Assembly (NCBI RefSeq): GCF_002954685.1
Contig: NZ_MSCN01000001.1
Coordinates: forward strand, 2,719,554 to 2,783,553
Source: Polaribacter porphyrae
Lineage (GTDB): Bacteria > Bacteroidota > Bacteroidia > Flavobacteriales > Flavobacteriaceae
DNA length: 64,000 nt
Direction of reading: 5' to 3'
Of the stretch, positions 15,076-25,654 are shown piece by piece (the first letter of the stretch is position 1; the number at the start of each line of letters is the position of its first letter). A model generated the notes under the pieces. It had not been told where the DNA came from. It did no database searches and saw nothing but the letters and a program-made list of their open reading frames with translations. Both the position numbers and the translations under genes were made by a program.

Positions 15076-15951
15076 TTAAGTCTTAAATCTTTTTCTATAA
15101 GCTTCTGGAGTATAATTTGTATGCTTTTTAAAATACTTATAAAGATTAGCAGGATCTCGAAACCCAAGCTTAAAAGCTATTTCTTTTATAGATAAACTTG
15201 TGTGTAAAAGATTCTTTTTTACTTTAATAATTATTACCTCATCTATAAACTTTTTTGCAGATTTGTGAGTAACAAATTGTACTACAGTATTTAATTTTTT
15301 TGAGGAAAATCCGAGCTTTTTGGAGTAATCACCTACTTTTTTAGTGGTAGTATAGTTATTTTCTAATAGGTTTTGAAATTTAATAAACTCTTTCAGATAC
15401 TTACTTAACTGAACTTTATTATGTCCTTCAGATTTTATTCTATAAATAGCAGTAATTAAAACATGTACTAAACTTCTAATAATTTTATTACTGTAATCAT
15501 CTGAAATAGTTAAAACTTCTTCTTCTATTTTAGTTATTAAAAGTAAGATATTAGAAAATTGTTCATCGTTTAATTGCGTTTTTGGTGATGTTAGCATTTC
15601 ATTAAATGCCTGAATGGTTTTTCTAATTTCAGTTTCATTAAGATAACTATTCAGAAACTCTTCTCTGAAAAAAAGTGAAAATCCTCTTGCATTCTTATTA
15701 TTGTAAAATTTTTGAATTTGATTTTTTCTAATAGATAGAATCGTACCTCTTGAATAATAGTAATCATTGTAATCTATAGAATGTCTTCCTATATCTGCAG
15801 TAATAAAAATTAATGTATAATAATCTATAGAATGATTAGAATTTATTACATCTTTTTCTTTTAATTTTAATAAATCTTCAAGTCTAGTAATTTTAAAGTT
15901 TAATCCTTGAGAATTTATTTCATAAGCACTACTTAAAGAAACATTTAGCAT
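15076..15951 (-). CDS. AraC-family transcriptional regulator
   Basis: A 291-residue regulator. The C-terminal 100 residues are a double helix-turn-helix of the AraC/XylS type (LGFSSKKLNTVVQ; then SIKEIAFKLGFRDPANLYKYFKKHT and TPEAYRKRFK). The N-terminal 190 residues resemble the cupin-like sensing region of cytoplasmic AraC proteins (YDYTLIFI-like strands, RKNQIQKFYNNKNARGFSLFF). No membrane segment. It lies 35 bases downstream of, and on the same strand as, the 11-gene polyketide cluster, so it may be co-transcribed with it and control it; this is inferred from position only. Confidence 0.88.
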   Translation of the reverse strand: MLNVSLSSAYEINSQGLNFKITRLEDLLKLKEKDVINSNHSIDYYTLIFITADIGRHSIDYNDYYYSRGTILSIRKNQIQKFYNNKNARGFSLFFREEFLNSYLNETEIRKTIQAFNEMLTSPKTQLNDEQFSNILLLITKIEEEVLTISDDYSNKIIRSLVHVLITAIYRIKSEGHNKVQLSKYLKEFIKFQNLLENNYTTTKKVGDYSKKLGFSSKKLNTVVQFVTHKSAKKFIDEVIIIKVKKNLLHTSLSIKEIAFKLGFRDPANLYKYFKKHTNYTPEAYRKRFKT

Positions 15952-15986: not shown

Positions 15987-16436
15987 TTAATTAATAGAAT
16001 TTATCACAACTGCTTTTTGATTAAAGAAAATCTTAGCATTTTCTCTTTTCCCAAGCAATAACTTTCCAATAGGAGATGAAACAGAAACAGCAAAATACAT
16101 CTTCTTTGCAACTACAAGTTGCCCAGCAGAAATTGAGAGAAAATAGTTGGCAACATTGGTTTCTATTATACTTCCTAAATGTGCAATATTAGAAGTTTTT
16201 GAAACATTAATTTTTGCTAGTGTTTCTTTCATTTGATAAATGTTAGAAAGCTGCTGACTGGCTTTTTCCATCTCTAATTGTAACATAGCTCGTCCAGTTT
16301 CATGCTTGTCTCCAGCAGAACTTTTGGTTTCTGATTGTAATGCTTTTTGATGGGATGAAATTGTCTCTTGAACAGTTTTTAAACGGTTATCTACAAACTC
16401 TTTGCATTTATGTAGTAATTCTTTTTTAATTTCCAT
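15987..16436 (-). CDS. GreA/GreB C-terminal-like protein (last gene of the polyketide cluster)
   Basis: A 149-residue protein. The first 80 residues form a predicted helical hairpin (KCKEFVDNRLKTVQETISSH; then SSAGDKHETGRAMLQLEME). The C-terminal part (IGSIIETNVANYFLSISAG and SPIGKLLLGKRENAKIFFN) resembles the FKBP-like domain of transcript-cleavage factors GreA/GreB, including the SPIGxALLGK-like turn. The related family is frequently mislabelled as a 3-oxoacyl-ACP synthase, but no thiolase motif is present. It overlaps the phosphopantetheinyl transferase gene by 11 bases. Whether it acts on RNA polymerase is unproven. Confidence 0.75.
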   Translation of the reverse strand: MEIKKELLHKCKEFVDNRLKTVQETISSHQKALQSETKSSAGDKHETGRAMLQLEMEKASQQLSNIYQMKETLAKINVSKTSNIAHLGSIIETNVANYFLSISAGQLVVAKKMYFAVSVSSPIGKLLLGKRENAKIFFNQKAVVINSIN

Positions 16437-17007
16437 TTATAATAAATGCATATGCTCCATAATTTCCATGATGCGAAATAGAACAAGAATTTGTTAGAAA
16501 TTTATGATGATGATAAAATTGTGGTACTCCAATTTGGATTTTCCTTTTTTCAATTTCTGATGATAAAATCCCTGTATTTTCTTGTAATCGTTTTGTTATG
16601 TCTTTATCGAGGTTATTTGGAGATCCAACTCCTAAAAAAACGCGAATTTTATGACCTCCTTTAATTAATTTATCTTCTGCAATTGTGTGTATATAAGATG
16701 CATCAAAAAAAGTAGTTGTATAGAAGTTTGTGTTTTGAAAAGTTACAACACCTTCATCTTCTTTGGTAAGTAAACATTCAAACTTTTGTGGAGCAAAAAA
16801 ACGCTTTTTTACTTTTTGAGTGTAGCATTTATATGCAGCTTCTTTCATAGACCAAAATAACCAAACCTTTAAAAAAGGATTTTCTGAATTATAAATTTCT
16901 TTCTGTTCTTTTTCAGTAAACTGTTTTTCTAGAAAGCCAATCCTTTGCCAATCACTTTCTGTTTTTGCTAATTGTAGGTCTATAATATCATTTCCAATAT
17001 TAAGCAT
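16426..17007 (-). CDS. 4'-phosphopantetheinyl transferase
   Basis: A 193-residue enzyme of the AcpS/Sfp superfamily that would attach the phosphopantetheine arm of CoA to an acyl carrier protein. The magnesium-binding motifs are visible: GNDIIDLQLA near the N-terminus (residues 5-14) and WSMKEAAYKCY around residue 52. The C-terminal half is divergent (SCSISHHGNYGAYAF near the end). It overlaps the ACP gene by 8 bases, a strong hint that it activates that carrier protein specifically. It is shorter than Sfp (about 225 residues) and longer than AcpS (about 125). Confidence 0.85.
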   Translation of the reverse strand: MLNIGNDIIDLQLAKTESDWQRIGFLEKQFTEKEQKEIYNSENPFLKVWLFWSMKEAAYKCYTQKVKKRFFAPQKFECLLTKEDEGVVTFQNTNFYTTTFFDASYIHTIAEDKLIKGGHKIRVFLGVGSPNNLDKDITKRLQENTGILSSEIEKRKIQIGVPQFYHHHKFLTNSCSISHHGNYGAYAFIINGN

Positions 17008-17251
17008 TCATTTTATTTTGAATAATCTGTATAGTGGCTTTTACTGTTAACATATTTTCCATAGAATCGTTATCAATTTCTATATCAAACTCATCTTCAA
17101 CATCTAAAATAATATCTACTAAATTTGCAGAATTTATTTCTAAATCATTTATAAAATCTGTTTCTTCGTTAAGATTTTTAAAACCTTCTTCGTTTTGAAC
17201 ATAAGGTTTTACAATTGCAGTTAGTTTTTCTAAAAGTTGTTCTTTTGTCAT
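17000..17251 (-). CDS. Acyl carrier protein
   Basis: An 83-residue acidic four-helix carrier protein. The phosphopantetheine attachment serine is Ser41 in EINSANLVDIILDVEDEFD, where the usual DSL is replaced by NSA. It is followed by the standard acidic helix II and ends with TVKATIQIIQ. It begins one base before the end of the ketosynthase gene and overlaps the transferase gene by 8 bases, so the three are made together. It would carry acyl or polyketide intermediates for the cluster rather than serve primary fatty-acid synthesis; this is inferred from context. Confidence 0.9.
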   Translation of the reverse strand: MTKEQLLEKLTAIVKPYVQNEEGFKNLNEETDFINDLEINSANLVDIILDVEDEFDIEIDNDSMENMLTVKATIQIIQNKMNA

Positions 17252-18526
17252 TTAATTATCTAAATATTTTTTAAATATAACACAAGCATTCACATCTCCA
17301 AAACCAAAACTAGCTTTTGCAAGAAAGTTGATTTCTTTTTTTATTAATTTTTGTGGAATCTTATCTTTATGAATGAGTTCTGATATTTCTGGATGAATAT
17401 CATCGCAATTAATATTTGGGAATACAAGTTGATCTTTAATTTGCAAAACAGTAGCAACAGATTCAATTGCTCCAGAAGCTGCTAAACAATGTCCAATTTG
17501 CGATTTCAAAGAATTAATTAAAGGGAAGTTTTCTCCTTTTCTATTCAATGCTATTGTCCAATTTCTAATCTCTAAAGCATCTTTAGATGTGGCTGTTAAA
17601 TGGCCATTAATAGCATCAATTTTATCAGCAGAAATCTTTGCATCTACCAAAGCATCTTTTATACATCTTTGAACAGCTTCTGCATTTGGAGCTGTTAAGG
17701 AACCTCCATTTCTTTGCCCTCCAGAATTTATATTACCTCCTAAAACTTCTGCATAAATCGTTGCTTTTCTTTCTAAAGCACTTTCTAGAGATTCTAAAAC
17801 CAAAGCTGCTGCTCCACTTCCTGGTACAAAGCCAGAAGCAGACGCACTCATTGGTCTTGAGCCTTTTTCTGGAGATTCATTGTGCTTATAAGTCATCACT
17901 CGCATCGCATCAAAACCTCCCCAAGAATACAAACTGCTATCACTAGAACTACCTACTAACATTCGTTTTGCTTTGCCAGTTTTAATTCTTTCAAACCCTA
18001 AAAGCAAAGCTTCTGTACCAGTTGTACAGGCTGAAGAATTCGTTGTTATTTGATTGCCAACACCTAAAATTCCTCCTAAATATGCAGATATTCCACTAGC
18101 CATAGTTTGCACTACAGAAGTACTTCCTAAACGTCTTACTTTATTATCATCAATTTTATAAATTGATTCTCTAAATTTTTCGATTCCAGAGGTTCCAGTT
18201 CCAAAAATAATACCTGCATCATAATCTAAAATAGAGTTTTCGTCAACAGAAAAACCTGCATCTTTCCAAGCATCAACTCCTGAGATACAACCGTATAAAA
18301 TAGAAGTACTGTTAAAGCCTCTTAATTGTAAAGGTGTTAAATATTGGGCAATTTTTTCTTCAGAAATTTTTGGAATTCCACCTATACAACAAGAAAACCC
18401 TTTTTCTTTTAATTCTTGATGGAATGTAATACCTGATTTACCTTTCTGTATAGCATCTGTAAATTCTTGCAAACCTACTCCATTTGGTGCTACAACTCCT
18501 AGACCTGTAATAACAACTCTATTCAT
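17252..18526 (-). CDS. Beta-ketoacyl-ACP synthase (KAS I/II type)
   Basis: A 424-residue condensing enzyme. The Cys-His-His triad is intact: Cys167 in TTNSSACTTGTEAL, His309 in INGHLTATSKDALE and His346 in LKSQIGHCLAASGAIE. C-terminal glycine-rich 'FGFGDVNACVIF' completes the thiolase fold. It should perform decarboxylative elongation of acyl-ACP with malonyl-ACP. It overlaps the dehydratase gene by 8 bases and abuts the ACP gene, forming a small fatty-acid-like unit inside the type III polyketide cluster. It is not next to fabD, fabG or the usual acpP-fabF pair, which argues for a specialised role. Confidence 0.92.
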   Translation of the reverse strand: MNRVVITGLGVVAPNGVGLQEFTDAIQKGKSGITFHQELKEKGFSCCIGGIPKISEEKIAQYLTPLQLRGFNSTSILYGCISGVDAWKDAGFSVDENSILDYDAGIIFGTGTSGIEKFRESIYKIDDNKVRRLGSTSVVQTMASGISAYLGGILGVGNQITTNSSACTTGTEALLLGFERIKTGKAKRMLVGSSSDSSLYSWGGFDAMRVMTYKHNESPEKGSRPMSASASGFVPGSGAAALVLESLESALERKATIYAEVLGGNINSGGQRNGGSLTAPNAEAVQRCIKDALVDAKISADKIDAINGHLTATSKDALEIRNWTIALNRKGENFPLINSLKSQIGHCLAASGAIESVATVLQIKDQLVFPNINCDDIHPEISELIHKDKIPQKLIKKEINFLAKASFGFGDVNACVIFKKYLDN

Positions 18527-18968
18527 TATCTTTAGTGATTATCATTCCTGAAATTTCGCCTCTACAAACCAATTCGTTTTTCAAATTCATCATTTTGACT
18601 TTACATTTTAATTTGTTAAATCTAAAATAGACTTTTTCTGAAACTACAGTAACTTTTTCATTAGGTAAGACAGGTAAAAAAAAATCTACTTGATGAGAAG
18701 TTAATGCAATTTGTAGTTTATTTTCTGATGAAATTTTTTCTTTTAATAAGTAAATCCCAAAACAAACAACCCCAATTTGTGCCATAGTTTCTGTAAGAAT
18801 TACACCTGGAGTAATTGGGTTTCCTTTAAAGTGTCCTTTATAAAAATAGGCATCTTTCTGATATGTATAAATCCCTGAAACACCATTTTCAGAGATTTCA
18901 GAAATTTTATCAACAAACAAAAATGGTTTTTGATAGGGTAAAAGTGATATGATTTTTTTTGTTTTCAT
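18519..18968 (-). CDS. FabZ/FabA-like 3-hydroxyacyl-ACP dehydratase (hot-dog fold)
   Basis: A 149-residue hot-dog protein with LPYQKPFLFVDKI near the start and the active-site helix motif HFKGNPITPGVILTETMAQ, which contains the conserved catalytic His of FabZ. FabZ-type enzymes use a His/Glu pair; in this protein the Glu position is occupied by Glu in LTETMAQ. It would dehydrate 3-hydroxyacyl-ACP. The ATG at 18966-18968 gives the family N-terminus; the longer frame to 19016 adds a basic extension. It overlaps the KAS gene by 8 bases. Confidence 0.83.
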   Translation of the reverse strand: MKTKKIISLLPYQKPFLFVDKISEISENGVSGIYTYQKDAYFYKGHFKGNPITPGVILTETMAQIGVVCFGIYLLKEKISSENKLQIALTSHQVDFFLPVLPNEKVTVVSEKVYFRFNKLKCKVKMMNLKNELVCRGEISGMIITKDNE

Positions 18969-19051
18969 TAGCTTAAATTTTCCTTTTGAACTAAACCTCT
19001 TGAACCTCCAAAACAAATATCCATTCGTTTTTATGTCGAAATTCTTTCATT

Positions 19052-19753
19052 TTAAGGTTTTAAGATTTTACCTTTTTTATCTAAAATTTCAAATCTTGCA
19101 TTATCAAACTCATCTATATAAATCTTAATTCTTTCTCTCCCTTTAGAATCATATAAAAAGAGCCCAGTCTTTTTATTTTCTTCTCTTCCTAAAAACATTC
19201 TGTACACATTTATTTCAGAGTCTATATATTTTTTGAAACTTAAATAGGCAGAATCTTTTTGAGTTTTTGAGTATTCTTTTGTTTTAGCTTGGAAAGCTTC
19301 AACTAATTTTTCTACCCTTATAGAATCTGAACGTTCTCTAAAAAACATACCATACCAACGTTTCCATTCTCCTTTTTCAAGATACTCATCTTTCATAATT
19401 GCCATTATTTGATCGTTTTTCTGCTGATCAAAAGTTATTCCTGCAAAGTTTTCTTTATCTGTACCATCATAATAAATACCTCCAACTTCATCTCCAACTC
19501 TATTAAAAAAGATAATTCCTGGTAAATCTCTTTTTGTGTCTGGATAATGTGGAACTCCATGGGTTGTGGCTAGAGCTTGTTGTTCAGGATTACTTATAGA
19601 CATATATAAGTTGTTATCTGAACCAACAATACTTAATCTTTGAGCTTCAATTTCTTTGAACTTTACAATATCCTTTTTTGTACTTGTAAAAACGAGATAA
19701 GCTATAATACCTAGTAAAAGGGTAAGGTTGATTAATGGTAATTTTGATTTCAT
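19052..19753 (-). CDS. Membrane-anchored hypothetical protein in the polyketide cluster
   Basis: A 233-residue protein with one N-terminal transmembrane segment (about residues 6-22, LINLTLLLGIIAYLVF) and a periplasmic or extracellular remainder. The soluble part has a repeated 'xxGIxxxD' character (GGIYYDGTD, FAGITFDQ, TGLFLYDSKGRERI), suggesting a beta-rich domain. No family with known function was recognised. It is separated from the polyketide synthase by 77 bases and from the dehydratase by 83 bases, the two largest gaps in the cluster, so it may be an insertion into an older operon or have its own promoter, although no consensus box was found in either gap. Confidence 0.6.
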   Translation of the reverse strand: MKSKLPLINLTLLLGIIAYLVFTSTKKDIVKFKEIEAQRLSIVGSDNNLYMSISNPEQQALATTHGVPHYPDTKRDLPGIIFFNRVGDEVGGIYYDGTDKENFAGITFDQQKNDQIMAIMKDEYLEKGEWKRWYGMFFRERSDSIRVEKLVEAFQAKTKEYSKTQKDSAYLSFKKYIDSEINVYRMFLGREENKKTGLFLYDSKGRERIKIYIDEFDNARFEILDKKGKILKP

Positions 19754-19830
19754 TTTTAACTTTTCTTAAACTTTTATTTGTGTTTTTTTCATTGAAATGC
19801 TAAAAAAACTTTAGTAATTATAATAAACTG

Positions 19831-20883
19831 TCACCATTCTAACAAAATTCTTTGTGCTGAAAAACCTGGTCCAAAACTTAACATAATTCCACGTTCTCCT
19901 TTTTGTGGGTTTCTATCCATAAATCGTTCTAAAACATATAAAACTGTTGCACTTGACATGTTTCCAAACAATCTTAAAACTTCTTTAGTATCATTTATAT
20001 TTTTGCCTAATTTACCAAATAAATCTTCTACTGTTTGTACAATTTTTTTACCTCCAGGATGAAAAATTAAATGATCTATATCTTCTATTCTTAAATTATT
20101 TTTTTCTAAAAATGGGTGAATAATATTTGGAAAATGATCAGAAATTTTTTTAGGTACTTCTTTGTCTAATATCATTTGTAATCCAGTATTTACTAAATTG
20201 AAACCCATCATGTGTGTGGCATCAAAAAAGTGATACATTTCTTCATCTATAATTGTTGGCCCTTCATCATCCTTAAAAGAAGATAGAATTACACTAGAAG
20301 CACCATCACCAAAAATCGCAGCACTTACTATGTTTGTCATAGAAAAATCATTTAATTGAAAAGTTGCTGTTGGGGCTTCTACTGCAACTACTGCTGCTCT
20401 TTTATTTGGATTCGCTTTTAAAAAATTCTTCGCATAAATTATTCCTGAAACACCAGCTGCACAACCCATTTCTGTAACTGGCAAGCGAACAATATCTTGT
20501 TTCATGCCTAATGAATTAATTAAATACGCATCTACAGAAGGAATCATTATACCTGTACAACTCACAGTAATAATATAGTCTAAATCTTTGGGGTTTAAAT
20601 TGGCTTTTTCTAGAGATTTTAATAGTGATTGTTCAGCCAATTGCACTATTTCTCTCTTATAAATATTGTTTTTATCTTCAAATGAAGTTGCTGTAAACAC
20701 CTCTTCTGGATTCATTATAGAATAGCGTTTATCTACTCCTGCACCTTCAAAAAGTTTAACAACTTTTCTTTGAAAACGAGATTCTTGATCTTGCATCCAA
20801 AGTTTTACAAAAGGAATAATGTCTTTTGTTTCTCTATAGTATTTTGGTAATTGCTTGGCTACTGATATTATTTTTACTGCCAT
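19831..20883 (-). CDS. Type III polyketide synthase (chalcone/stilbene synthase family)
   Basis: A 350-residue homodimeric ketosynthase that extends an acyl-CoA (or acyl-ACP) starter with malonyl-CoA and cyclises the product. The catalytic triad is present: Cys141 in VTEMGCAAGVSGI, His275 in HLIFHPGGKK and Asn308 in LFGNMSSATVL. The family C-terminal signature appears as LSFGPGFSAQ (residues 335-344). Length fits bacterial members. Bacterial relatives make alkylresorcinols, alkylpyrones or tetrahydroxynaphthalene; which of these applies cannot be read here. It directly abuts the methyltransferase gene, as in srs/bps-type loci. Confidence 0.92.
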   Translation of the reverse strand: MAVKIISVAKQLPKYYRETKDIIPFVKLWMQDQESRFQRKVVKLFEGAGVDKRYSIMNPEEVFTATSFEDKNNIYKREIVQLAEQSLLKSLEKANLNPKDLDYIITVSCTGIMIPSVDAYLINSLGMKQDIVRLPVTEMGCAAGVSGIIYAKNFLKANPNKRAAVVAVEAPTATFQLNDFSMTNIVSAAIFGDGASSVILSSFKDDEGPTIIDEEMYHFFDATHMMGFNLVNTGLQMILDKEVPKKISDHFPNIIHPFLEKNNLRIEDIDHLIFHPGGKKIVQTVEDLFGKLGKNINDTKEVLRLFGNMSSATVLYVLERFMDRNPQKGERGIMLSFGPGFSAQRILLEW

Positions 20884-21594
20884 TTATTTTTTAATTATCC
20901 ATAAAAAACGGAATGCCCATTTCCATGATATTTGTGATTTTTTATTAATTTTATTTGAAATTCTCTCTAAATCTTGTCGTTTAAATCCTCTTAAAACTGA
21001 TGTTAAACCATCTTCAATAATCATCTTATTTTTTATAAAAATTGACAATAACATAAACAGATAATAAGCTAATTTATGTCTATGTAAATCGTTAACAACC
21101 ACTCCTATTTTAGCTTTCTTTATCGTATTTCTTAAAAAAGAAATCAATTCTGGTTCTTTAAAATGATGTAAAAACAACGTGGCCAAAACAACATCAAATT
21201 CGCGTTTTTGAAATTCATCAGAAAAAATATCTTCCGTTTTAAAACTCAATTCAGTATAATCTACAGACAATTCATTTGCATACTGAATTGCTGTTGGGTT
21301 TGCATCTACTCCAATCAACTTAAATGTATAGTTGTTTTTTCTGCCAAATTTGGCAATATCTCTTAAAATATCTCCATGCCCACAGCCAATGTCAATAATG
21401 GTAACTTCTTGTTCTTTGGGGTGGTTTTTAAGAATCGATTTTAAGCCTTTTAAAGTTACTCTATTACCTCCTAACCAGCGATTTATATTTTCTAATTTAT
21501 CTAAAGTATCACGCAATAAATCACCACCAATAGAAAAATCGTCCATGATTTCTTCTTTGTCTGTTCTTTGTTTTGTGCTAACTATAAAATTCAT
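20884..21594 (-). CDS. Class I SAM-dependent methyltransferase
   Basis: A 236-residue enzyme. Motif I is VTIIDIGCGHGDILRDIA (around residues 64-81), the acidic residue after strand 2 is in IGVDANPTAIQYA, and post-motif FDVVLATLFLHHF is typical of UbiE/COQ5-like or O-methyltransferases. It probably methylates the product of the adjacent type III synthase. The ATG at 21592-21594 shares one base with the stop of the flavoprotein gene (TAATG), which supports this start; upstream sequence to 21687 belongs to that gene. C-terminal residues are basic and hydrophobic (SWKWAFRFLWIIKK), perhaps contacting the membrane. Confidence 0.87.
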   Translation of the reverse strand: MNFIVSTKQRTDKEEIMDDFSIGGDLLRDTLDKLENINRWLGGNRVTLKGLKSILKNHPKEQEVTIIDIGCGHGDILRDIAKFGRKNNYTFKLIGVDANPTAIQYANELSVDYTELSFKTEDIFSDEFQKREFDVVLATLFLHHFKEPELISFLRNTIKKAKIGVVVNDLHRHKLAYYLFMLLSIFIKNKMIIEDGLTSVLRGFKRQDLERISNKINKKSQISWKWAFRFLWIIKK

Positions 21595-22724
21595 TAATCT
21601 ATGGGTTTTCCATGGGTTTGTTTGATGACAATTGGCAATAAAAAAGGAAGTTTTTGAACTACATTCAATAACAGGTTTGAGATCCAATCCTTTCTAAACA
21701 AAGCTGCAATAAAATGCCCTACTTTTAACCTCCATTTAAATTGTTTATTCCATTTTGAAATATAGCTTTTTTCTAATTGATTTCTGTCGATTTTTTTCTC
21801 TAAAAAATCAATAATTAATGGTGCTACTATTTGTGCAGATTGAATAGCCATACTCATTCCATTTCCACACAGTGGATGAATCATACCTGCTGCATCACCA
21901 GAAAAAATAATATGATTATTAACCAGCTCTTTAGTATCAAAAGAAATTTGGCTTATAGATAGAGGTTTATCCCAAATTGGTTTTGAGTTTTTAAAAATCT
22001 CATTTAAAAACTTATTCTTAAAAACAATACTCTTTTGAAAATCTTCTATACTTTTATATTTTTTAAATGATAAATAATTTGTGATATAACATAAATTAAT
22101 AGCATCATTTTCTACTTTAGAAACACCACAATATCCACCTTTAAAGTTATGAAGTGCTACTAAATCTTTTGGAAAAGTACCTTTTACATGAATTTTTACA
22201 CCTAAATAAGGTGATTTTTTTTTGATAAATTTTCGATTAAGCTCAACATCTAGAGTTGACCTTTTTCCAAATGAGCCAATTGCTATTTTAGAGGTAAAAA
22301 CCTTATTCTGTTTTGTTATAATTGTAAAAACATCAATTTTAAAATTGATGTTTATTACAGCATCTTTAAGTATAGCAACTCCATTGGCTATTGCCTTTTT
22401 TGAGAGTTGGTAATCTAAAGTGTGCCTAGATATTCCAAAACCTCCTAAAGGTAATTTTGACGAAAAGAGTTTACTATTTGTAGTAGAAAGTTGAAAATTT
22501 TTAATCTGTACTGCACCAAAATCAAAAGGGTTAAAGTCTAAATATTTTAAATAAGGAATCACTTCATTAGAAATATATTCTCCACAAACTTTGTGTTTTG
22601 GATAGCTGTTTTTTTCTACCAACAATACTTTTTTGCCAAATTTTGATAGATGAATAGCATTGCACAAACCTGCTAAACCACCTCCAATAATAATAACATC
22701 AAAATTTGGGGTTTTTGTTTTCAT
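21594..22724 (-). CDS. FAD-dependent monooxygenase or geranylgeranyl-reductase-type oxidoreductase
   Basis: A 376-residue flavoprotein of the PHBH/UbiH/GGR superfamily. The dinucleotide motif IIIGGGLAGLCNAIHL is at residues 11-26, followed by a basic KVLLVEKN strand end, and the second FAD motif is FSGDAAGMIHPLCGNGMSMA near residue 280. This class hydroxylates phenols or reduces isoprenoid double bonds. Next to a type III polyketide synthase and a methyltransferase, aromatic hydroxylation is the more likely role (compare srsA-srsB-srsC). The ATG at 22722-22724 overlaps the preceding stop as TAATG; the upstream extension is inside the neighbouring gene. Confidence 0.85.
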   Translation of the reverse strand: MKTKTPNFDVIIIGGGLAGLCNAIHLSKFGKKVLLVEKNSYPKHKVCGEYISNEVIPYLKYLDFNPFDFGAVQIKNFQLSTTNSKLFSSKLPLGGFGISRHTLDYQLSKKAIANGVAILKDAVININFKIDVFTIITKQNKVFTSKIAIGSFGKRSTLDVELNRKFIKKKSPYLGVKIHVKGTFPKDLVALHNFKGGYCGVSKVENDAINLCYITNYLSFKKYKSIEDFQKSIVFKNKFLNEIFKNSKPIWDKPLSISQISFDTKELVNNHIIFSGDAAGMIHPLCGNGMSMAIQSAQIVAPLIIDFLEKKIDRNQLEKSYISKWNKQFKWRLKVGHFIAALFRKDWISNLLLNVVQKLPFLLPIVIKQTHGKPID

Positions 22725-23833
22725 TAATCTAGTAATTCTGCTAATTCTTTCCCTACTAAATATCCAATTGCTATTCCCATTCCTCCTAAACGAACTCCAC
22801 AAAATACATTATTAGAAATTTGTTTTATAATAGCTTTCTTCTGATTTCCTACACCCATAATTCCACTCCATCTATGTTCAATTTCAAATTGTTGGTTGGG
22901 TAAAATAATTTCTTTCAATATTCTCTCTAACTCATTTTGAATGATTTCTGTTTGTCCAAATTCAGTAGTTTCTTCTGTCTTAAAGTCTAAATTTCTGCCT
23001 CCACCAAACAAAATTCTATTGTCTATATTTCTAAAATAGTAATAGCCTTTATCCAAATGAAAAGTTCCTTTAATTTCTAAATTTTTTATAGGTTTTGTAA
23101 TTAATACTTGAGCTCTTGCAGGTGTTACTTTTTCTATAAGAAGTTCTCTAGAAAAACCATTTGTAGTAATTAACAATTTATTTGTATAAAAATCTAATCT
23201 ATTGGTTTTTAAATGAATTTTAGTGTTATTATCTTGATAACTCTCTAACTTAATATTGTTAATGATTTTAATTCCTAATTTTTGAGTTTTCCTCAATAAT
23301 TGAGTAGTCATTTTCCCAGTATCTATTTGCCCTTCAAAATTATTTGTAATGTATTTTGAATATACTTTTTTGAAATTAAAAATATTATCTGTTTCAGAAA
23401 AAATATTTGCTTTAAAGATTGGTTTTAGTAAAAGATTTATAGTATCTTTCTTTGTGATACATTTCTCATAAAAACTTTTCGATTCACATAATTCAAAACC
23501 TCTATTTTCTTGAAAATCTATGTCTTTGTCTCCTAAATTTTTTCGTAATAATTGTAAACCCTCCCAACGCTTTTTTACTAAAGTGTAAACCTCTTCTTCT
23601 GTATGGGATTGTAAATCGTAAATGATTTCAGATAAACTTCCAAAACAAGCAAAACCTGCATTTTTTGTTGATGCTCCTTGAGGTAACATTCCTTTTTCCA
23701 AAACAATAATTTTAGCTTTTGGATATGTCTCTTTTAATGTTATTGCACAACTTAAGCCTACAATTCCACTACCAATAATTGTAAAATCAATTTTTGAAAA
23801 CCATTCTTTTAATTCCCAATAACTATAGTTCAT
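22724..23833 (-). CDS. DAO-family FAD-dependent oxidoreductase
   Basis: A 369-residue flavoenzyme of the D-amino-acid-oxidase/glycine-oxidase fold. The N-terminal FAD motif is FTIIGSGIVGLSCAITL (residues 17-33) with acidic IIVLEKG after it, then GASTKNAGFACFGS, the common 'GAS-NAG' element where FAD or substrate is held. The C-terminal motif RWSGIMGVG and CGVRLGGMGIAIG is typical. The substrate is unknown. It is the second gene of the cluster, with the GNAT gene ending one base upstream and the next flavoprotein overlapping by one base. Two flavoenzymes in tandem suggest successive oxidation steps. Confidence 0.82.
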   Translation of the reverse strand: MNYSYWELKEWFSKIDFTIIGSGIVGLSCAITLKETYPKAKIIVLEKGMLPQGASTKNAGFACFGSLSEIIYDLQSHTEEEVYTLVKKRWEGLQLLRKNLGDKDIDFQENRGFELCESKSFYEKCITKKDTINLLLKPIFKANIFSETDNIFNFKKVYSKYITNNFEGQIDTGKMTTQLLRKTQKLGIKIINNIKLESYQDNNTKIHLKTNRLDFYTNKLLITTNGFSRELLIEKVTPARAQVLITKPIKNLEIKGTFHLDKGYYYFRNIDNRILFGGGRNLDFKTEETTEFGQTEIIQNELERILKEIILPNQQFEIEHRWSGIMGVGNQKKAIIKQISNNVFCGVRLGGMGIAIGYLVGKELAELLD

Positions 23834-24283
23834 TTATACTATTTTTTCAAAACAAATACTGTTCTCCATTCCAACATATTGCCCATAATTTGGGATGATT
23901 TTATACTGACATTTTTTGTAAAAATTTACAGCTTCTATTTGTTTTTTTCCTGTTTCTAAAACACATTTTTTATATTCTAACTCTTTTGTCCAAACTTCTA
24001 ATTCTTTCAAAATATACTGGGCAATTCCTTTATTTCTATAGCTTTCTGCTACGAACATCCTTTTTACTTCCATAGCAGAATCATCAAATTTTTTAATAGC
24101 ACCACAACCTACTGCTATATGATTTTGGTAAATTACAATAACATGATTTAACACGTCAATATTATTAAACTGATTGTAAAAATCGTGTTCATCACCATCC
24201 GTTATTTTGAGATATGCATCCAATTGTTTTACCAATTTAATGAAATCTTGATTGTCTGAATTTGTTCTTACAATATGGGTCAC
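23834..24283 (-). CDS. GNAT-family N-acetyltransferase
   Basis: A 149-residue acyltransferase of the GNAT fold. Motif A is VKRMFVAESYRNKGIAQYILKELE (given in part; the acetyl-CoA pyrophosphate loop is RNKGIA), followed by LETGKKQIEAVNFYKKCQYK. It has no signal peptide. It is the first gene of the polyketide cluster, ending one base before the DAO-type gene. It could modify an amine-containing product or be a passenger; the acceptor is unknown. No consensus TAnnTTTG box was found in the 200 bases upstream. Confidence 0.85.
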   Translation of the reverse strand: MTHIVRTNSDNQDFIKLVKQLDAYLKITDGDEHDFYNQFNNIDVLNHVIVIYQNHIAVGCGAIKKFDDSAMEVKRMFVAESYRNKGIAQYILKELEVWTKELEYKKCVLETGKKQIEAVNFYKKCQYKIIPNYGQYVGMENSICFEKIV

Positions 24284-24484: not shown

Positions 24485-25189
24485 TTATCCTTTAACTTGA
24501 TTTGCTTGTTTTTTTGCTTCCTCTTTCATTTTTTCATCAGGAACAATAGCAACATTTACACGTCTATTTTTTGCTCTTCCTTCAGCAGTTGTATTATCAT
24601 ATTTTGGTTGTGTCTCTCCATACCAAAGTGTTTCGAAACGAGAGCTTGCAATACCATCACTCACTAAATAATTTTTAACCGATTTTGCTCTTTTTTCAGA
24701 TAATGCTAGATTATAAGCCTCTTTTCCTGTATTATCTGTATGCCCAACAACTAGAATTTTAGTATCTGAAAACTCTATAAAAACTTTAGCTAATTTGTCT
24801 AAAGTTTGCTTTGATTTATTATTGATATTTGCCTTATTTGTATCAAAATATACACCACTATTTTCATCAAAAGTAACAACAATACCATTATCTACTCTTT
24901 CTACTTCAGCTCCAGGTATTTCTTCCTCAATTTTTTTAGCTTGCTCATCCATTCTCTTACCAATTAAAACACCAGCTGTACCACCTAAAACACCACCAAT
25001 TACTGCTCCTAACTCACTGTTCTTTCCATTACCAACATTGTTACCTATAATAGCTCCAATAATAGCACCACCAGCAGCTCCAATTACTGCTCCTTTTTGT
25101 TTATTATTGGCGTTTTTAGTCGCTTCACAAGAAGTTAGAGATACAAGAATTGTAAAGATTAATACGATACTTAAGTTTTTACTTTTCAT
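24485..25189 (-). CDS. OmpA-family lipoprotein with glycine zipper
   Basis: A 234-residue envelope protein. The lipoprotein signal is IFTILVSLTSCEATK (Cys21). Residues 30-85 form a glycine-zipper segment (GAVIGAAGGAIIGAIIGNNV; then GAVIGGVLGGTAGVLIG) that inserts in or along a membrane. Residues 110-225 are an OmpA C-terminal peptidoglycan-binding domain, with ILVVGHTDNTGKEAYNLALS and LSEKRAKSVKNYLVSDGI. The protein ties outer membrane to cell wall. It ends in a charged tail (KEEAKKQANQVKG). It follows the lipocalin-like gene by 6 bases on the same strand. Confidence 0.9.
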   Translation of the reverse strand: MKSKNLSIVLIFTILVSLTSCEATKNANNKQKGAVIGAAGGAIIGAIIGNNVGNGKNSELGAVIGGVLGGTAGVLIGKRMDEQAKKIEEEIPGAEVERVDNGIVVTFDENSGVYFDTNKANINNKSKQTLDKLAKVFIEFSDTKILVVGHTDNTGKEAYNLALSEKRAKSVKNYLVSDGIASSRFETLWYGETQPKYDNTTAEGRAKNRRVNVAIVPDEKMKEEAKKQANQVKG

Positions 25190-25195
25190 AATTAT

Positions 25196-25654
25196 TTATT
25201 GTTTTATAAAATTCATATTTATTATAAAGGGTTCTCCATCTACTCTAATGGTTTGTTGCCAAAGCATTCTATCTTCAGAAAGATTCTTAAGTTTTACCCT
25301 AAAACCAATATTACTTTCGTTCTTTTTTGGCTTAAGAAGAAAATCATAATAGCCAGAAATTTCATCAACTTCTTGAATTACAAATATAAACTCTCTTTCA
25401 TCTGCTGAACAGTTTGCTTCTTTAAATACATAAGTTCCTGAATTGTTATTAGGAACAAATTTCCAACTACTACCAACAAAACATCCTGCTTTTTGATCTT
25501 TAAACAAAGTAACATTATACGATCCTGTTTTGCTGTACGTAATTTTATTTAGAGTCCAATTTCCTTTAATTACTTTTTCTTTAGTTTTAATGTTTTTTGA
25601 CACTCCACAAGAGAGCATTGTTATTGATATGAGTAAAAATAGTATTTTTTTCAT
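25196..25654 (-). CDS. Lipocalin-like lipoprotein
   Basis: A 152-residue lipoprotein (LLISITMLSCGVSK, Cys16). The mature domain begins with the lipocalin-like 'I.G.W.L..I' pattern (VIKGNWTLNKITYSKTG) and is made of repeated beta strands. It matches the small lipocalin-like proteins frequent in Flavobacteriia, often encoded beside an OmpA-domain lipoprotein as here. The ligand is unknown. Probably co-transcribed with the OmpA-like gene. Confidence 0.8.
   Translation of the reverse strand: MKKILFLLISITMLSCGVSKNIKTKEKVIKGNWTLNKITYSKTGSYNVTLFKDQKAGCFVGSSWKFVPNNNSGTYVFKEANCSADEREFIFVIQEVDEISGYYDFLLKPKKNESNIGFRVKLKNLSEDRMLWQQTIRVDGEPFIINMNFIKQ

Follow-up and report, generated by a model that had tools for sequence, protein, structure and literature searches.

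A seven-gene core around a type III polyketide synthase in Polaribacter porphyrae carries an acyl module where other operons of the Bacteroidia carry a UbiA prenyltransferase

What does a type III polyketide synthase (T3PKS) do in an operon that also encodes its own acyl carrier protein (ACP), ketosynthase, dehydratase and phosphopantetheinyl transferase (PPTase)? The question is raised by a 64,000-nucleotide stretch of the Polaribacter porphyrae genome (contig NZ_MSCN01000001.1, positions 2,719,554 to 2,783,553; hereafter the window), in which a first-pass annotation had described an eleven-gene T3PKS cluster. The eleven co-directional open reading frames (ORFs) are indeed present within 15987-24283, all on the minus strand. 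Our answer, to which we assign a probability of roughly 55%, is that a core of the cluster makes a methylated and oxygenated lipid of the phenolic, pyrone or quinone kind. Its acyl tail would be built on the dedicated ACP; in relatives a prenyltransferase would take this role.

The conserved core comprises seven genes in the order FMO-MT-T3PKS-[slot]-DH-KAS-ACP-PPTase. In the window these encode, all on the minus strand, a flavin adenine dinucleotide (FAD) flavoprotein of the GG-reductase/UbiH-like superfamily (FMO, 21594..22724), a class I S-adenosylmethionine (SAM) methyltransferase (MT, 20884..21594), the T3PKS itself (19831..20883), a FabZ-like hydroxyacyl-ACP dehydratase (DH, 18519..18968), a FabF-like ketosynthase (KAS, 17252..18526), the ACP (17000..17251) and the PPTase (16426..17007), the last belonging to the core in most relatives. 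For analysis, start codons were trimmed to 22724 for FMO, 21594 for MT and 18968 for DH. As annotated, most cluster junctions overlap or abut; the exceptions are gaps of 77 and 83 bases flanking a membrane-protein gene in the slot.

Gene order was compared among named T3PKS loci, of which the best 80 of at least 561 confirmed relatives were kept; these are the closest ones and the sampling is uneven. A locus entered the count of a gene only if its sequence extended 2.5 kb or more upstream, or 5.5 kb or more downstream, of the T3PKS. Both FMO and MT were found in 75/75 loci, DH in 68/69, KAS in 67/69, ACP in 68/69 and PPTase in 59/69, and the cluster-family members found in the loci all lay on one strand. 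A failure of gene order to be conserved in relatives had been named in the first-pass annotation as evidence against the cluster; as the order is conserved, no such objection arises. Absences from the core were confined to one locus of a metagenome-assembled genome (MAG; L127) without DH, KAS, ACP and PPTase, to Lacinutrix neustonica (L098) with fragmented KAS and MT regions, and to seven loci of Aequorivita and two of MAGs (L122, L132), which lack PPTase.

In 199 sampled Flavobacteriaceae genomes, almost every one from a different genus, T3PKS orthologues (at least 55% identity) were present in 63, with the genome of the window counted and one genome (G150) carrying its T3PKS in two pieces. 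A match at E 1e-10 was obtained in 140 of the 199, the non-orthologues listed being far weaker. Within the genus, 68 of 146 genomes matched at E 1e-50, and the nearest named loci, among the best 80, are from Polaribacter and 85-89% identical. Among 296 genomes of the phylum, three from other families of the class have T3PKS orthologues of 71-72% identity; the core is present in all three, and the reductase gene of the slot, described below, is missing from two. The recurrence of the core order in many genera is more than chance.

Protein families were assigned by Pfam and NCBIfam profile scores, read against the cut-off of each model, and the family names of the first-pass annotation were borne out from its GNAT gene through to the PPTase. 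The T3PKS scored 75.0 bits on PF00195 and 68.1 bits on PF02797 (cut-off 27 for both), and a genome-wide search at E 0.001 gave no second PF00195 match; on the model of the 3,5-dihydroxyphenylacetyl-CoA synthase DpgA (NF042429) the T3PKS reached 173.4 bits, short of the cut-off of 425. Its triad Cys141-His275-Asn308, already pointed out in the annotation, is invariant in 21/21 aligned sequences and in 79/79 rows of a second alignment. Active-site residues are likewise conserved in the other enzymes. KAS, which scored 267.4 bits on TIGR03150 (fabF; under the cut-off of 493.75), keeps the triad Cys167-His309-His346 in 73/73 rows. In DH (Pfam FabA) the catalytic His46 is found in 63/63 and Glu60 in 64/64 of the rows with a residue there, and Ser41 of the ACP (Pfam PP-binding), within an NSA motif, is kept in 69/69 rows. 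The active-site residues of the PPTase (Pfam ACPS) are also conserved, and a second ACPS-family gene is present elsewhere in the genome. MT belongs to Methyltransf_31/25 of Pfam and scored 144.7 bits on NF004851, under the cut-off of 243. FMO matched FAD_binding_3 and, with 99.8 bits against a cut-off of 158.8, the NCBIfam model GG-red-SF; residues G276, D277 and A279 are present in 77/77 aligned rows, and the protein is probably a ring hydroxylase.

In most relatives the slot between T3PKS and DH is filled by a short-chain reductase (SDR) gene that is missing from the window. A slot survey of 164 loci (153 distinct T3PKS sequences; some genomes stand under two locus numbers) found SDR present in 99, absent from 62 and undetermined in three. 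Three SDR members scored best on the FabL model (137-146 bits, cut-off 328), and the spacing Y-x6-K, the FabI/FabL signature, occurs in at least 54 of 59 rows, with three rows unmatched. On a FastTree T3PKS tree the presence of SDR changes 12 times, at least six of these changes being forced by well-supported branches.

Traces of the loss are still visible in the window. The 83-base gap next to DH contains the start of a FabL-like reductase gene with deletions (18969..19050, minus strand): local alignment to 42 SDR starts gave a best score of 74, compared with a mean of 34.2 (sd 4.0, maximum 52) for 500 shuffles and a score of 40 for the other gap, and a collinear relative (G566, T3PKS 92% identical) has an intact SDR at the position of the relic. 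The window has lost the SDR between T3PKS and DH and keeps a relic of about 80 bp. Relocation of SDR within the window's genome was rejected, the best match there having 29% identity (E 4.6e-15), and a search at E 1e-20 found SDR elsewhere in 0/16 SDR-less genomes, with both positive controls recovered.

The slot of the window now holds a gene for a membrane-anchored protein of 233 amino acids (19052..19753, minus strand) that matches no Pfam family. This gene is a guest. It had no tblastn match in the 80 cluster loci at E 1e-4; homologues occur in 18 of 146 other genomes searched, and in the five genomes with both a homologue and a T3PKS match (G283, G496, G507, G534, G553) the two were apart in 5/5. 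As it was never near the T3PKS in genomes showing both, a role as a pathway member was rejected. Other guests use the same place: in 11 SDR-less loci it is taken by IS200-like genes (L059, L061, L067, L068, L070, L185, L187, L188, L195, L201, L205; possibly some genomes are numbered twice), and the Pfam family Y1_Tnp was confirmed for the slot gene of L059, the one locus checked. In genome G484 (L213, 4426-6186) the slot contains yet another guest, a 586-amino-acid ORF that by eye has the look of a secreted beta-helix protein. Neither the guest status of the membrane gene nor the lost reductase was within view of the first-pass annotation.

A relic SDR and an inserted foreign gene could also mean that the copy in the window is in decay and has lost its function, and broken copies do occur in relatives: MT and KAS are fragmented in L098, the T3PKS match of G563 contains two stops and the T3PKS of G150 is split. 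However, the remaining core ORFs of the window are all open, and absence of SDR recurs (62/164 loci, 12 tree changes) while DH and KAS stay. Since none of the 16 SDR-less genomes tested carries the gene elsewhere, the core evidently persists without it, and we consider decay of the window's copy improbable.

Relatives of MT and FMO were also found in a second type of operon. Among 14 distant Bacteroidota T3PKS loci (L160-L173), 12 are without MT or FMO of the window's families, and in five of these 12 the T3PKS is followed by a membrane protein that by eye resembles ICMT. The other two, L171 and L172, carry MT and FMO of the same families plus a UbiA gene. When the L172 T3PKS was used to search 345 genomes of the class, 65 of them matched, and the 30 best loci, taken with 1.5-kb flanks, contained UbiA in 26 cases, MT in 26, FMO in 25 and YceI in two, and DH, KAS, ACP and SDR in 0/30; one of the two sequences behind the UbiA model (L215 = L172) itself belongs to the 30 loci. 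None of the 80 window-type loci, with flanks of up to 10 kb, gave a UbiA match. Two architectures contain the MT+FMO pair, one together with UbiA and the other with the acyl module; no stretch examined had both partners.

The two proteins of L172 are 32% (MT) and 39% (FMO) identical to those of the window, and other UbiA-type MTs reach 46% identity to the window's MT. In the MT tree the window's type joins one UbiA-type subgroup with a support of 99, this subgroup having been picked post hoc. The unrooted T3PKS tree shows three clades, the window type (support 100), the UbiA type (100) and the ICMT type (90; a label partly assigned by eye); with three clades and no root, treatment of the T3PKS types as sister groups was dropped. 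Among solved structures the best relative of the UbiA-linked T3PKS (L172, 7832-8920) is 4b0n, which we take to be the phloroglucinol synthase of a brown alga, and that of the window's T3PKS is Pks11, with CylI listed fourth. That the T3PKS itself may have been exchanged between the architectures is suggested by its branch, which is far longer. A conflict between the MT and T3PKS trees was sought as proof of such an exchange, and the T3PKS tree calculated without the ICMT rows groups the same rows (support 23.6); because this two-type tree does not contradict the MT tree, branch length is the single feature that points to T3PKS exchange.

We read these data as one tailoring pair, MT and FMO, with two alternative putative tail suppliers, a natural comparison of two ways of tailing a tailored ring. 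Taken further, the Bacteroidia might possess a family of quinone-like lipids in which MT and FMO were kept while the source of the tail, and perhaps also the enzyme making the ring, were swapped. Many families would use UbiA and one T3PKS clade to give an isoprenoid tail, and Flavobacteriaceae another clade and a dedicated type II module on which an acyl tail is built. This wider idea is speculative and we hold it with low confidence. If true, it would add an unrecognised membrane or periplasmic quinone or phenol, partly carried by YceI, from about a third of the genera of the family.

The same loci bear on whether FMO-MT-T3PKS and DH-KAS-ACP-PPTase are just two unrelated operons lying side by side. 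Guests land in the slot between the halves, the trio occurs without the acyl module in other families, and two loci of the window's type are without DH or KAS downstream, namely L127 and L086, the latter excluded from the counts for its short flank and showing no DH after its SDR. The halves nevertheless stay together in numerous genera, as they also do in two or more additional families, and we regard two unrelated operons as very unlikely. The first-pass annotation's view of a fatty-acid-like unit joined to a trio of T3PKS, methyltransferase and FAD enzyme is a sound one.

For the core as a joint pathway we infer the following chemical steps, including the transfer from ACP to T3PKS and the class of the product. 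The dedicated PPTase would activate the dedicated ACP, on which KAS, the FabZ-like DH and a reductase would build or extend an acyl chain; the reductase would be the cluster SDR where it survives and household reductases otherwise. The T3PKS could then take the ACP-bound chain as starter, add malonyl units and close the ring, after which MT would methylate and FMO oxygenate the ring, plausibly to a hydroquinone or quinone. Precedents for the transfer from an ACP to a T3PKS are reported in relevant passages on ArsA with ArsB/ArsC (PMC6274091) and on CylI and others (PMC8086630). Two loci (L110, L121) contain a second MT-family gene between ACP and PPTase, which suggests that their product might be doubly methylated. 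In 21-23 of the 80 loci (L080, L083, L091 and others) genes named by eye as fabH-, accB- and accC-like lie upstream, a possible link to malonyl-CoA supply.

Alternatively, the T3PKS may use an ordinary acyl-CoA, with KAS, DH and ACP making an independent acyl group for attachment to the ring or to some other molecule. According to part of PMC8086630, type III PKSs were long thought to be restricted to CoA-activated substrates; UbiA in the sister operons would tail a finished ring, and the acyl module might do likewise. No result obtained here separates acyl-CoA from acyl-ACP use. Against such a division of labour, the conserved core contains no acyltransferase family, and we judge it rather unlikely.

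A lipid product is hinted at by genes that adjoin the cluster in relatives, where YceI and an MMPL/RND protein might handle the lipid outside the inner membrane. Among the 60 loci that extend 8 kb to either side, YceI genes were within reach in 25, all on the operon strand and beside FMO or after PPTase; an MMPL transporter gene directly follows PPTase, on the operon strand, in 14/69 loci. Two YceI members were checked on PF04264 (97.4 bits, cut-off 23.7) and the MMPL family was confirmed by Pfam for one member. YceI proteins bind isoprenoid quinone-like lipids.

Several points weigh against the proposed acyl-tailed lipid. Neither YceI nor MMPL is among the scanned genes flanking the window's cluster, and both are missing from most loci. 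The window's cluster is without a reductase, and from the broken copies of L098, G563 and G150 it follows that the pathway is dispensable. Gene adjacency is no proof of ACP-to-T3PKS transfer, and the ring need not match between the two architectures because their T3PKSs come from separate clades. Furthermore, a Trp of ArsB has been linked to resorcinol formation (PMC6274091, in part). At the site placed opposite this residue, a placement that is itself inferred, 14/14 window-type enzymes read MGF and 6/8 ICMT-type enzymes MGW; with Phe probably standing at the Trp site, the ring may be a resorcinol or a pyrone. Finally, T3PKS clusters are frequent in Flavobacteriaceae, with shares of 9% and 10.74% of predicted clusters given in portions of two surveys (PMC7440613; PMC10734526), and passages elsewhere mention Aequorivita T3PKS clusters (PMC6139392) and call an Aquimarina T3PKS cluster unlike any MIBiG entry (PMC9860996); yet for the type studied here neither product nor architecture is described in what was found in the one open-access library searched, subscription papers and MIBiG lying outside that scope.

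The remaining members of the annotated eleven did not hold up as parts of one cluster. A DAO-type FAD oxidoreductase (22724..23833, minus strand; Pfam) has counterparts upstream in 46/67 loci at varying positions, with none found for relative G527 in its stretch (L210), and a GNAT acetyltransferase (23834..24283, minus strand, GTG start; Pfam) has counterparts upstream in 11/67 loci with enough flank. A gene resembling that of the weakly Gre-like protein (15987..16436, minus strand) lies upstream of the T3PKS in 29/67 loci and downstream in 19/69, at differing positions. Because the presence or position of these three varies among relatives, and the membrane gene is likewise variable, seven genes, not eleven, give the best picture of the pathway. 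The name given to the Gre-like protein was the weak one in the annotation: GreA_GreB was matched at E 0.008 with 16.6 bits (cut-off 26.9), no family was matched at E 0.001, and a function as elongation factor is not supported.

Past the operon end lies an AraC-family gene (15076..15951, minus strand; Pfam HTH_18) with a homologue in the same position in G566 and L067; it is a possible regulator of the operon. A flavobacterial promoter motif gave 8 matches in the scan (6.8 expected), none ahead of the operon, and scans for sigma-70 promoters (69 found, 59.4 +/- 7.6 expected) and terminators (3 found, 3.2 expected) were near chance. PADLOC returned no defence association for the membrane gene or the Gre-like gene, and in a plasmid search (228 records) the 15 rows listed had at most 33.6% identity. 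Upstream of the cluster, the window (24485-25654) and Aequorivita (L113, L114, L123, L126 and others) share a pair of OmpA-like and small lipoprotein-like genes despite having only distantly related clusters, whereas a dinB-like gene adjoins the cluster in many loci of Polaribacter.

How, then, does the core compare with known systems? The first-pass annotation had likened the trio to srsABC of Streptomyces griseus. In srsABC and pkqABC of Actinobacteria, as in the window, a T3PKS is accompanied by a methyltransferase and an FAD oxygenase. Polyketide quinones have been linked to such operons in Actinobacteria (PMC9927152), alkylresorcinols to those of Planctomycetota (PMC10896814). The planctomycetal operon and cyanobacterial hidABC (hierridin) can be likened by description, combining T3PKS, methyltransferase and oxidoreductase; one of them carries a gene for lipid/isoprenoid binding, and no acyl module is described in the relevant part of PMC10896814. 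The window's cluster might accordingly be a phenolic-lipid operon of the srs/pkq or hierridin type with a redundant fatty-acid unit, making a known class of compound such as a methylated alkylresorcinol or alkylquinone, a view that overlaps with ours as to the product. The side-by-side trio agrees with it. However, an srs-like Streptomyces operon (L179), which represents srs by gene arrangement only, has an MT of the ICMT family instead of the class I SAM type, a flavoprotein only 20% identical to FMO over 259 residues, a different gene order and no acyl module that we could see. The acyl module is moreover kept in 67-68 of 69 loci and thus unlike a redundant copy. We regard this explanation as possible but doubtful, and the likeness to srsABC as partial.

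Bacteroidota are known to make phenolic lipids from ACP-bound chains, the flexirubins and dialkylresorcinols of DarAB; DarB is not a type III PKS, and its model gave only 26.9 bits here (cut-off 550). The ars system of Azotobacter relies on a type I fatty acid synthase (FAS) for its chain. As in the window, a dedicated acyl-chain synthase (ArsA) stands beside the T3PKSs (ArsB/ArsC), and hand-off of acyl-ACP is reported in a section of PMC6274091; the window differs in having discrete KAS, DH and ACP and in adding MT and FMO. Cylindrocyclophane biosynthesis offers a T3PKS fed by an ACP (CylI), the arrangement proposed here, although type I PKSs extend its chain and halogenation and dimerisation follow, unlike in the window (PMC8086630, in part). 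With its discrete type II parts, the core is a candidate system for chain transfer from an ACP to a type III PKS. A closer match than srs for MT and FMO is provided by the UbiA-T3PKS-MT-FMO operons of other Bacteroidia (such as L172 and L171), with homologues of both tailoring proteins and YceI in 2/30 loci, and in these a T3PKS of another clade and a UbiA prenyltransferase take the place of the window's T3PKS and its KAS-DH-ACP module. Together, the true core, the lost reductase and these sister operons turn an annotated cluster into a concrete product hypothesis.

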